32,123 bases of DNA from positions 1-32,123 of the forward strand of contig JAPKMU010000010.1 in the NCBI GenBank assembly GCA_026645745.1, in the 5' to 3' direction. The DNA is from Anaerolineae bacterium (GTDB lineage: Bacteria > Chloroflexota > Anaerolineae > Aggregatilineales > Phototrophicaceae). A model generated the notes under the pieces. It made no database searches. It was not told the origin of the DNA and worked only from the letters and a program-made list of their open reading frames with translations. Each line of letters starts with the position of its first letter. Position 1 is the stretch's first letter. A program made the translations under genes and the position numbers. Shown here in pieces: positions 10,805 to 13,934 of this stretch.

Positions 10805-10845
10805 ATCAAGCTAACCAATTCAGATTGTGCGAATTGGCACTTGAT
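10805..10845 (+). promoter_or_regulatory. Hairpin between the AIM24-like gene and pdxT
   Basis: A two-part stem: outer ATCAAG (10805-10810) with CTTGAT (10840-10845), a small internal loop, then CCAATTC (10815-10821) with GAATTGG (10831-10837) and a 9-base loop. No T-run follows, so it is not a standard intrinsic terminator. It stacks directly against the next inverted repeat (10848-10906). Confidence 0.5.
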
Positions 10846-10847
10846 CC

Positions 10848-10906
10848 AGAAAACGTTCTCCATCACGATAAGGCTGTCAAGCACTGTGAATGAGAGAACG
10901 TTTTCT
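10848..10906 (+). promoter_or_regulatory. Perfect inverted repeat abutting the pdxT start: operator pair or RNA switch
   Basis: AGAAAACGTTCTC (10848-10860) and GAGAACGTTTTCT (10894-10906) are perfect 13-base inverted copies with a 33-base spacer, and the second ends one base before the pdxT ATG. Each arm is itself a near-palindrome around AACGTT, the central step typical of LacI-family operators; the centres are 45 bp apart. Folded as RNA, the 3' arm holds the only purine-rich ribosome-binding sequence (GAGAGAAC), so pairing would hide it. Confidence 0.6.
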
Positions 10907-11503
10907 ATGAAGATCGGTGTCCTTGCGCTACAGGGCGCGTTTGTCGAACATGAGAAAATTCTCAACGCATTAGGCGCAGAAGCGGTTCAGGTGCGCCTCC
11001 CCACTGACCTCGAAGGATTGGATGGGCTGATCATCCCCGGCGGCGAAAGTACAACCATCGGGCAGCTTGCAGCAACGTTCGGCTTGATCGAGCCGCTGCG
11101 CGCGTTTGCGCGTTCAAAGCCGACATGGGGAACATGCGCCGGAATGATCTTTCTTGCTAAGGATATTGGCAGCGACCGTCAGCCGCTGCTTGGATTGATG
11201 GATGTGACCGTCAACCGTAATGCCTTCGGACGGCAGATCGACAGTTTTGAGACAGACCTTGATGTGCCGAAATTGGGCGATGCCCCGTTTCATGCCGTGT
11301 TCATTCGCGCGCCGCTTGTCACAGCGACGGGCGAAGGTGTTGAAACACTCGCAAGCCTTCCCGATGGGCGAATCGTTGCTGTCGAACAGGGGCATCTGCT
11401 CGCAACCGCATTTCACCCGGAATTGACATCGGATCATCGTTTCCATGCGTATTTTCTAGCACAAATCCGCGCAGGACAAAAAAGCAGCGCAGGATCGGCA
11501 TAA
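10907..11503 (+). CDS. pdxT: Pyridoxal 5'-phosphate synthase glutaminase subunit PdxT
   Basis: A 198-aa class-I glutaminase that hydrolyses glutamine and channels ammonia to the PdxS synthase, which makes pyridoxal 5'-phosphate from ribose 5-phosphate and glyceraldehyde 3-phosphate. Family hallmarks are complete: PGGESTT at about 44-50, the nucleophile C77 in WGTCAGM, and the H170/E172 pair in AFHPEL. Length is normal for PdxT. The frame is open 66 bases further upstream, but the ATG at 10907 starts exactly at the conserved [12 protein letters not shown]. No pdxS lies in the window; in many bacteria pdxS and pdxT are adjacent, so this copy is detached. Expression is probably controlled by the inverted repeat ending at 10906. 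The next gene starts about 100 bases downstream with its own likely promoter. Confidence 0.95.
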
Positions 11504-11913: not shown

Positions 11914-12921
11914 ATGCGTGCATGGAAGTTCGCTTTTGCGGTGATGTGCGCGATCGCAGTTGTAGGAGGCATTTGGGCGCAAGACGCTCAACCTGCCGCA
12001 CCTACGCCGATCGCAACGGTGGACGCCGGGGACTTCCGTGCGCTCACGATTAGTGCGAATGGTCGCTGGATGATGGTCGCAGACGCGGCTACCTCTCGAC
12101 TTCGTGTTTATGATCTTGAAACCGAAATCCCGACACTTGTCGCATCCCCAGAACTTTACGGAACACCGCTCGATGCTGCTGCCATTGGTCAGGCAGCATT
12201 GATCGCGTTGGATACAGGCGGACGGGCTGGGGTAGCGGAGATCGTTGCAGCGATTGATTACGATCCAAATCAGCCGTTCGCTTCGGTGAACTTAATTGAC
12301 CTCACAGATCGTCCGCGCAGGGTCAGCGCATCGCCCGATGGTTCATGGGGAGTCATCGTTGGCGGCAGTGGTTATACACTGTTTGAAATCCTCTCCCCCG
12401 AAGACGTGAATTCGACGTTCTACCCCACCCCCGTCTCGGATGCTGCACTGCTGCCTGACACGGTGTTTTTGGCAGATCGAAACAGCCCGCGCATTATGAC
12501 GGCTGCACTCGAATCCGGTGCGCAAGCATCGATCAACCGCAGTGTGACGATTGAACTTCCAGCGCTGGCAGAACGGCTTGCGCTCAACTTGAGCGGCACG
12601 CTGGGCGCGGCGGCATTGGCAGACGAATCGATTGTGCTGTTTGATCCCGCATCAGGCGATGTGATTTCAATTCTGGGATCAACACCTGCATCAGATTTGC
12701 ATTTCCTCAGTTTTGAAAGTGGGGAATGGCTGGTTGTTTTATCCGATGATCGCCAAGCCGTGACGCTGATCGATGTCAGTTCACCGGCGAATCCCGGCGA
12801 AATCGGTGCGCTTGAACTCCCCGCCGATGCGTCAATCATTCAGGCGATTACGACGTATGGCAACTTGATCTTCGTGGCAGATCGCGCGACGGTTCGGATT
12901 TTCCAAGCATCACAGCCTTAA
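11914..12921 (+). CDS. Secreted beta-propeller-like protein
   Basis: A 335-aa exported protein with a signal peptide at residues 1-22 (core AFAVMCAIAVVGGI, cleavage near WAQ). The rest is a series of short beta-rich repeats such as ALTISANGRWMMVADAATSRLRVYDL and VSASPDGSWGVIVGG, the pattern of WD40/PD40-like propellers with 'S.DG.W..V' strands. No catalytic residues are recognised; such proteins usually provide binding surfaces. GGGAG about 7 bases before the ATG supports the start. It lies 24 bases after the hyperacidic gene and is probably co-transcribed with it; one speculative reading is that the two act together. A new promoter for the next gene starts only 13 bases after its stop. Confidence 0.75.
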   Translation: MRAWKFAFAVMCAIAVVGGIWAQDAQPAAPTPIATVDAGDFRALTISANGRWMMVADAATSRLRVYDLETEIPTLVASPELYGTPLDAAAIGQAALIALDTGGRAGVAEIVAAIDYDPNQPFASVNLIDLTDRPRRVSASPDGSWGVIVGGSGYTLFEILSPEDVNSTFYPTPVSDAALLPDTVFLADRNSPRIMTAALESGAQASINRSVTIELPALAERLALNLSGTLGAAALADESIVLFDPASGDVISILGSTPASDLHFLSFESGEWLVVLSDDRQAVTLIDVSSPANPGEIGALELPADASIIQAITTYGNLIFVADRATVRIFQASQP

Positions 12922-12933
12922 CCGAACCGCCTC

Positions 12934-12962
12934 TTTACATTCGCTTAAAATCCGCGTATAGT
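12934..12962 (+). promoter_or_regulatory. Near-consensus sigma-70 promoter of the DUF1003 leader
   Basis: TTTACA at 12934-12939, a 17-base spacer, and TATAGT at 12957-12962. Each hexamer matches consensus at 5 of 6 positions. Transcription should begin near 12969, right where the first hairpin of the leader starts. Confidence 0.7.
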
Positions 12963-12968
12963 GGGTTC

Positions 12969-13289
12969 ACCAATGAGGAGCAGAAGTGCTCCTTATTGGC
13001 TTGCATATTTGTTGAGGTACACACACTCAATGGACGCTGGCAGTACCTACGAACAGTTGCCGTCATTACCCGGCGGCGGTACGCCTGCCTGATCCTCCCC
13101 TAAGCTTCACACCTCTGTGTGCATGCGGGGAAAATCGGCGGTGTCACCGCCGACCCCGTTCAGCGGGGCAACCCCGGTGCAATGTTTGGCTCTGTTCCAC
13201 GCAAAACGAGTTCGCTTCACAAAAACAGGTGTTTGCCTAAGTGATTCTTGGGCTGCGTCTGCATAAACCGCTGCATGGAAGGAGTCGCT
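12969..13289 (+). ncRNA. Candidate structured 5' leader (cis-regulatory RNA) of the DUF1003 gene
   Basis: The 368-base interval 12922-13289 holds no gene. From the predicted start of transcription it contains: a 13-bp hairpin with a GAAG loop (12970-12982 with 12987-12999, one G-U pair); TTGAG/CTCAA (13012-13016/13026-13030), which competes with AGGTAC/GTACCT (13015-13020/13043-13048); a bulged stem GAC..GGCA/TGCCGTC (13033-13042/13058-13064) whose loop contains the GTACCT strand, giving a possible pseudoknot; GGCG/CGCC (13072-13075/13082-13085); a 7-bp stem TCGGCGG/CCGCCGA (13135-13141/13147-13153); and CGGGG (13164-13168), which can pair with either flanking CCCCG copy (13154-13158 or 13172-13176). 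The ribosome-binding site AAGGAG follows at 13279-13284. I could not match it by eye to the M-box, manganese, c-di-AMP, guanidine, TPP or cobalamin riboswitches. Confidence 0.5.
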
Positions 13290-13934
13290 ATGTACAACGA
13301 TCTGCTGCTCAAGGGCATGGTCACGCCGACCGACGATGAAGCCGAAATCCAAGAACTGATCGATGAGATCGAAGAATTGGAAAACCTGCTGAGTCCCGAA
13401 GCGCAAACATTGATCCGCGATTTGCGCCCACTCATCGTCACCGATGACGTGTACGAAGAAATGGATGAATCTGCTAGTTTTGGCGAACGGATGGCAGATC
13501 GCATCGCCTCATTTGCCGGAAGTTGGCGCTTCATCATCATGTTCTTTCTGATCATGGTGGGATGGATCGGCATCAATGCTGTGCTGGGCACGAATGCGTT
13601 TGACCCGTTCCCGTTCATCTTGCTGAACCTGACGCTTAGCACGCTCGCCGCGATGCAAGCGCCTGTTATCTTGATGTCCCAGAATCGGCAGGCGACCAAA
13701 GATCGCGCCGTTGCCGATAACGATTATCAGGTCAATTTGAAAAACGAAGTCGAAATCGCGGACTTGCACCGCAAGATCGACTCGCTGGCGGACGCGCTGA
13801 CGATGCAAACCCGTTTGGTTAACGTGTTGGTCGAAGCGCGCCGCAAGGAACTCAATGCGACCGTGCGTATGATCGAACACGCCCGCACCGATGGGCAGAT
13901 GGGAAGTTTGGGAAATCTCAGCGTTGGAAGATAA
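13290..13934 (+). CDS. DUF1003 membrane protein
   Basis: A 214-aa inner-membrane protein of the DUF1003 family. An acidic, coiled-coil-prone N-terminus (residues 14-45) is followed by the signature FGERMADRIASFAGSWRFII (64-83), TM1 (about 79-99), FDPFPFILLNLTLSTLAAMQAP (104-125) covering TM2 (108-128), then MSQNRQATKDRAVADNDYQVNLKNEVEI and a C-terminal coiled coil. Function of the family is not established. The ATG at 13290 is preferred to in-frame starts at 13248 and 13275 because AAGGAG lies five bases before it. It has its own promoter and a long structured leader, so its expression is probably conditional. The downstream interval to the TetR gene is 328 bases. Confidence 0.9.
   Translation: MYNDLLLKGMVTPTDDEAEIQELIDEIEELENLLSPEAQTLIRDLRPLIVTDDVYEEMDESASFGERMADRIASFAGSWRFIIMFFLIMVGWIGINAVLGTNAFDPFPFILLNLTLSTLAAMQAPVILMSQNRQATKDRAVADNDYQVNLKNEVEIADLHRKIDSLADALTMQTRLVNVLVEARRKELNATVRMIEHARTDGQMGSLGNLSVGR

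Follow-up and report, generated by a model that had tools for sequence, protein, structure and literature searches.

In E. coli and Salmonella, the upstream ORFs (uORFs) mgtL and corL sit in leaders that can adopt two mutually exclusive structures (PMC11552253). Proline or acidic residues in mgtL lead to inefficient elongation at low Mg2+, and this in turn leads to higher mgtA expression; translation of corL is inverse to corA expression, and uORF translation is likewise inverse to that of mgtA (PMC11552253). Other leaders bear comparison with these. The M-box (ykoK) occupies the leader of Mg2+ transport genes, and the trp and ilv amino-acid attenuators combine a leader peptide with alternative pairing of successive strands.

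The leader analysed here precedes a gene for a DUF1003 membrane protein in a 32,123-nucleotide stretch of DNA from an Anaerolineae bacterium (contig JAPKMU010000010.1; hereafter the window). Closely similar regions lie before magnesium transporter genes in relatives, which makes it likely that the leader is a magnesium-responsive switch of a new kind. It shares with mgtL–mgtA and corL–corA a uORF upstream of Mg2+ transport genes (that of mgtL containing proline and acidic residues), two exclusive RNA folds, seen here by covariation only, and the overlap of the uORF with the 5′ switching strands. However, the phylum, the peptide and the RNA fold are different, the main target is DUF1003, and the apparent output is covering of the Shine–Dalgarno (SD) sequence, whereas that of the enterobacterial leaders is Rho termination. 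Rfam gave no match to the enterobacterial mgtA or corA leaders, either at gathering score in the window and at the loci of relatives or at E 10 in positions 12800–13400. In our reading, which is one by analogy, the Chloroflexota element would work like mgtL-type attenuation but would not be a member of that family.

In contrast to the M-box, a conserved and apparently translated uORF is integral to the Chloroflexota element, and no gathering-score match to RF00380 was found in the window or at the loci of relatives. The mgtE motif (SRC-65-1) of Thioalkalivibrio is likewise a candidate leader RNA before mgtE, and includes the SD sequence and start codon; in the part of the source drawn on here, it is reported only from Thioalkalivibrio and without a uORF or two-state model, and it is set apart on that description (PMC11109978). 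Unlike in the trp and ilv attenuators, there is no run of one regulatory amino acid, the targets are transporters and no terminator was seen. The arrangement that marks a leader-peptide attenuator, a conserved short ORF overlapping alternative RNA strands, is present, with translation judged from the coding signature.

The DUF1003 gene and its leader

Of 154 genomes of the order, 49 hold the DUF1003 gene (Table 1), and the orthologues elsewhere in the order are 61–80% identical to that of the window. Its start is placed at ATG 13290, which is conserved (MYNDLL); TTG 13248, the start of the longest ORF, shows no such conservation and was rejected. The AlphaFold model of the protein, with a helix at residues 79–102 and a long helix at 108–210, reached a pTM of 0.38 and was left out of fold searches. 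To our knowledge, DUF1003 is a widespread family of uncharacterised function, and a literature search on it returned no paper tying the family to magnesium.

A blastn search with the leader against 101 related genomes gave, for several of these, a matching block of 50–60 nt at the corresponding position upstream of the orthologue. From the DUF1003 orthologues of the window's order (Chloroflexota, Anaerolineae), 48 distinct leaders were gathered; the named records among them are mostly Anaerolineae MAGs, one being labelled Aggregatilineales. The alignment used below, A2, comprises 41 sequences. With a mean column identity of 46%, overall sequence conservation of the leader is modest.

A first-pass annotation of the same DNA had proposed a TTTACA-17-TATAGT promoter followed by about 320 untranslated, structured bases, possibly of an unnamed class. 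The promoter recurs upstream of the uORF in nearly all of the 48 relatives, mostly as TTTACA with a spacer of 16–17 nt, and scores 9.7 on average as against 7.4 in shuffles. The length of about 320 nt from promoter to DUF1003 start holds, and the leader is indeed structured, folding more stably than dinucleotide shuffles (z −4.56; 0 of 100 shuffles as good). A hairpin at the position of the 5′ stem-loop beats shuffled sequence in 45 of 48 leaders, its stem sequences being unrelated. Rfam gave no family at gathering score in the window, no plausible one at E 10 in 12800–13400 and no relevant match at the leader loci of relatives, in agreement with an unnamed class. The leader is not untranslated throughout, in that a conserved uORF, overlooked in the first-pass annotation together with its overlap with the 5′ strands of key helices, occupies part of it.

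A conserved leader peptide

The uORF is present in all 48 distinct orthologous leaders, begins with ATG and spans 18–28 codons. Across A2, the ATG is kept in 41 of 41 sequences and the frame is open in all 41, compared with 7 and 3 for the other two frames. All gaps from the uORF start to the Gly codons are multiples of three, whereas downstream control regions vary in length by any number. One proline is found in 41 of 41 sequences through three synonymous codons, and one glycine is also invariant. From this coding signature, the uORF is almost certainly genuine and presumably translated.

In 13 of 41 sequences, His, Ser, Leu or Phe stands in place of the second proline; a strict Pro-Pro stall is therefore not a conserved feature. 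Counted over 51 peptides, an acidic residue lies N-terminal to the prolines in every one, and Pro-Pro occurs in 37. An SD-like core lies 5′ of the uORF in 35 of 48 leaders; in the window, the uORF is preceded by no more than a weak and distant SD-like sequence (TTGAGG). The Ser codons at positions 5–6 are almost always AGT AGT in most leaders (e.g. L048), more uniform than the peptide requires, which suggests an RNA-level role for these codons.

Two mutually exclusive sets of helices

RNAalifold, applied to the first whole alignment, recovered mainly helix A and part of helix B, and the helices were therefore examined by strand swapping. In this swap test, pairing between a leader's own two strands is compared with pairing between strands from different sequences, in subsets below 75, 62 and 55% identity; the best duplex per window is taken, and relatedness is not fully removed. 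At 75%, helices P1, A, B, C, K, F and H were all positive (Table 1) and all five control pairings were negative. At 55%, a subset of 14 sequences, the seven helices remained positive with z 2.0–5.3, C being the weakest. Pairs were counted on a sequence-only MAFFT alignment and set against a tree-aware null, in which the changes of each column were replayed at random along a FastTree tree. For double-change cells, the null gave 0/300 for A, C and E and 2/300 for B, and slid controls resembled the null.

Table 1. Features of the DUF1003 leader, all on the forward (+) strand of the window. Swap z refers to the 75% subset and the null to double-change cells; ON and OFF are putative states.
Feature	Position	Sequence or strands	Set	Observations
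Sigma-70-type promoter	12934–12962	TTTACA-17-TATAGT		Consensus scan; hexamers and spacing recur in relatives
5′ stem-loop	12970–12999	CCAATGAGGAGCA-GAAG-TGCTCCTTATTGG		Presumed 5′ end of the RNA
uORF (leader peptide)	13030–13092	MDAGSTYEQLPSLPGGGTPA		ATG 13030, TGA 13090–13092; 20 codons
Helix P1	13039–13043 with 13085–13089	uORF start with uORF end	OFF	Swap z 7.2
Helix K	13051–13056 with 13192–13197	GAACAG (Glu-Gln codons) with CTGTTC	ON	Swap z 7.0; occupies the anti-SD strand
Helix A	13071–13082 with 13141–13152	5′ strand in uORF Gly codons	ON	Swap z 7.7; null 0/300
Helix B	13089–13100 with 13127–13138		ON	Inside A; swap z 5.0; null 2/300
Hairpin C	13135–13142 with 13146–13153	TCGGCGGT with ACCGCCGA	OFF	8 pairs in the window; swap z 5.2; null 0/300
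Hairpin E	13154–13158 with 13164–13168	CCCCG with CGGGG	ON	Null 0/300
Helix F	13120–13123 and 13126–13130 with 13178–13181 and 13172–13176	CGGGG/CCCCG, flanking TGCA/TGCA	OFF	Swap z 7.4; crosses A and B
Helix H	13195–13203 with 13272–13280	Anti-SD TTCCACGCA with TGCATGGAA	OFF	Swap z 4.0; overlaps the DUF1003 SD region (GGAAGGAG, 13277–13284)
DUF1003 gene	13290–13934	Membrane protein, 214 aa		Pfam PF06210, E 3.5e-38

Helix A is paired in 93.5% of cells, with both sides changed in 10 of its 12 pairs, and its signal is lost when the 3′ strand is slid by one to three columns. Hairpin C, which has this 3′ strand in common with A, is paired in 81.8% of cells and has 36 double-change cells. The registers of K and P1 slide between lineages, and the column-pair count of K is low (59%) for this reason; compensatory pairs of K include GAACATAAGC/GCTTATGTTC (L063), GCAGAAAC/GTTTCTGC (L069) and TGCTGCCTC/GAGGCAGCA (L059). 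Hairpin E is missing in several relatives. A further hairpin within the uORF (D, CCGCC/GGCGG) was an attractive candidate but was rejected at a covariation z of 0.5, the codons being the better explanation of its conservation.

Helices K, A, B and E nest as one fold, helices P1, C, F and H as another, and the two sets are mutually exclusive. A and B each share a strand with C, K and H have TTC in common, P1 crosses K and A, and F crosses A and B. The DUF1003 ribosome-binding site would be free in the first set and covered in the second. Judged from the aligned leaders, the two covarying sets are very probably real, and the output is likely to be covering of the SD sequence. Two covarying folds with common strands argue clearly for a naturally bistable RNA.

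When the helices were imposed as constraints, the SD-free fold lay a median 2.7 kcal/mol above the minimum free energy and the SD-covered fold 14 kcal/mol above it. The RNA alone should thus be open, and something must close it. Since nearest-neighbour energies make the SD-covered fold so much the weaker, the passage of a ribosome may not suffice for closing.

The first-pass annotation had described a cis-acting sensor with two pairs of competing helices. A cis-acting control element with exclusive helices, conserved and covarying in related orthologues, is what the comparison yields, though the helices are largely other ones. The proposed exclusive pair TTGAG/CTCAA versus AGGTAC/GTACCT does not covary in relatives (z 0.6 and −0.2) and is not conserved. 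A CGGGG had also been placed between two CCCCG copies; it does form the 3′ arm of hairpin E with the first copy, but for the second, the 5′ CGGGG of helix F is the better supported partner. Similarly, the suggested pseudoknot-type helix is matched by long-range crossing competition, but between strands other than those named.

Copies before magnesium transporter genes

A covariance model built from A2 was run over 154 genomes of the order and found the element in 51, including 48 of the 49 that hold a DUF1003 orthologue. The one genome with an orthologue but no model match (L071, G023:C28) has an upstream region without a uORF of the same type. One match precedes mgtE in G022 (E 4e-22), which has a second copy before DUF1003, and matches precede corA in G076 (E 2e-13) and G081 (E 5e-12); the identity of all three transporter genes was confirmed by Pfam. 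The peptides of the G022 mgtE, G076 corA and G081 corA copies are, as listed, MNASLNSSEQGPPLPGGNSAS, MNEDSSSNEQAPPLPGGQDTQR and MNEDSSLNEQLPASPRGNIAPRR. Of the helices, A, K, F and P1 are retained in the mgtE copy and K and H in the G081 copy, whose 11-position B is not significant alone; the G076 copy has the uORF but no significant helix. Helix H has 8 bp both before mgtE (CTGTTTCC/GGAGGCAG) and before one corA (CCTCCATA/TATGGAGG). Furthermore, mgtE lies directly 3′ of DUF1003 in G037 (about 80 nt) and G035 (about 18 nt).

This context, which the first-pass annotation overlooked, suggests that the element probably belongs to a Mg2+ regulon, with the target genes and analogy pointing to Mg2+ as the signal. 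The leader probably ties the uncharacterised DUF1003 family to magnesium and gives it a concrete, testable assignment to magnesium homeostasis. The case may be likened to that of an Nramp-related protein for which Mg2+ transport was demonstrated earlier (PMC4072509).

At about 75 further CorA and MgtE loci in the order, the CorA genes of the window's own genome included, there was no convincing match, and the element is therefore not a group-wide means of Mg2+ control. A weak R1 match in G028:C20 (21.9 bits) is probably due to chance. Model scans at the level of the class and of the phylum, each over about 400 genomes, yielded no more than one weak, truncated match in addition; they score few candidates per genome, and weak copies can escape. 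Distant DUF1003 loci in other phyla had no Rfam Mg2+ riboswitch and, by tblastn, no mgtE or corA neighbour.

The element is preceded by a pdxT (SNO glutaminase) gene in the window (10841–11503), in G037 (L099:5–595) and, at the mgtE copy, in G022 (L201:3196–3783), where mgtE thus seems to hold the place of DUF1003.

Proposed mechanism and alternatives

Sequence comparison establishes the uORF, the two covarying helix sets and the link to mgtE and corA. The reading that best accommodates them, and which we hold with slightly more confidence than doubt, is a Mg2+-regulon attenuator that couples translation of a leader peptide to an RNA with two states. Within it, the assignment of the ON fold, the role of the ribosome and Mg2+ as the signal are inferred, and translation of the uORF is somewhat favoured as the sensor. 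The undisturbed RNA would prefer K-A-B-E, in which TTCC would be held by the Glu-Gln codons of the uORF and DUF1003 would be translatable. As the strands of K, A and P1 overlap uORF codons, a ribosome on the uORF would melt these helices. Once a ribosome moving through had melted K and A, the downstream strands would pair as C and F, and the freed TTCC would pair with the SD region (H), shutting DUF1003. When Mg2+ is scarce, ribosomes would drop off or stall at an early point of the peptide, which is acidic and contains Ser and Pro, and with uORF translation failing, the SD-free fold would win.

A direct metal-binding riboswitch, with K-A-B-E and the F strand as aptamer for Mg2+ or another metal and the uORF as a secondary modulator, is unlikely. 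The junction-like covarying fold with its crossing helix F would suit an aptamer, known Mg2+ riboswitches target the same kinds of genes, and an M-box of M. tuberculosis controlling a uORF is known (PMC12810186). However, 5′ strands placed in codons of a kept reading frame are unneeded by an aptamer, and at the mean column identity given above there is no invariant binding core outside the uORF. The first-pass annotation had named a riboswitch or an attenuator; direct ligand binding is not needed, and a uORF-driven attenuator fits better.

Such an attenuator might instead sense EF-P activity, prolyl-tRNA, general ribosome capacity or stress, with Mg2+ transporters targeted indirectly. The invariant proline and the prevalence of Pro-Pro are compatible with this, as are the action of EF-P on mgtL (PMC6460261) and the resemblance of a group B streptococcus DUF1003 protein to a Lactococcus protein associated with tolerance of acid and multiple stresses (PMC4839699). 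Against it, Pro-Pro is not invariant and, DUF1003 apart, all identified targets are members of Mg2+ transporter families; this alternative is quite improbable. Very improbable is a switch acting by transcription termination, Rho-dependent or intrinsic, with helix H as a by-product: Rho serves the mgtA and corA leaders (PMC11552253), but a scan of the leader found no intrinsic-terminator-like site, and H covaries with the SD region and extends to the mgtE copy and one corA copy.

Beyond the Mg2+-regulon attenuator as such, it is tentatively proposed that Chloroflexota independently evolved a Mg2+-sensing leader, where translating a short, acidic Ser/Pro peptide may directly settle which of two complete folds the RNA takes and so open or cover the ribosome-binding site of Mg2+ homeostasis genes, and that DUF1003 could be a new Mg2+ transporter or regulator. 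If true, this would be a leader-peptide Mg2+ switch outside enterobacteria, and would suggest more than one origin for ribosome-based sensing of Mg2+ through proline/acidic leader peptides.

Further observations on the leader loci

Two records labelled Pleurocapsa minor and Bacteroidetes (L086 and L107) bear an Anaerolineae-type DUF1003 gene and leader, probably through mislabelling or misbinning of contigs. In four MAGs from a single related genus, the DUF1003 leader has a tRNA-Cys gene nearby (L098:2522–2594, L101:580–652, L046:2597–2669 on the (−) strand, and L088:2535–2607); in L098, L088 and L046 this gene is close upstream of the leader.
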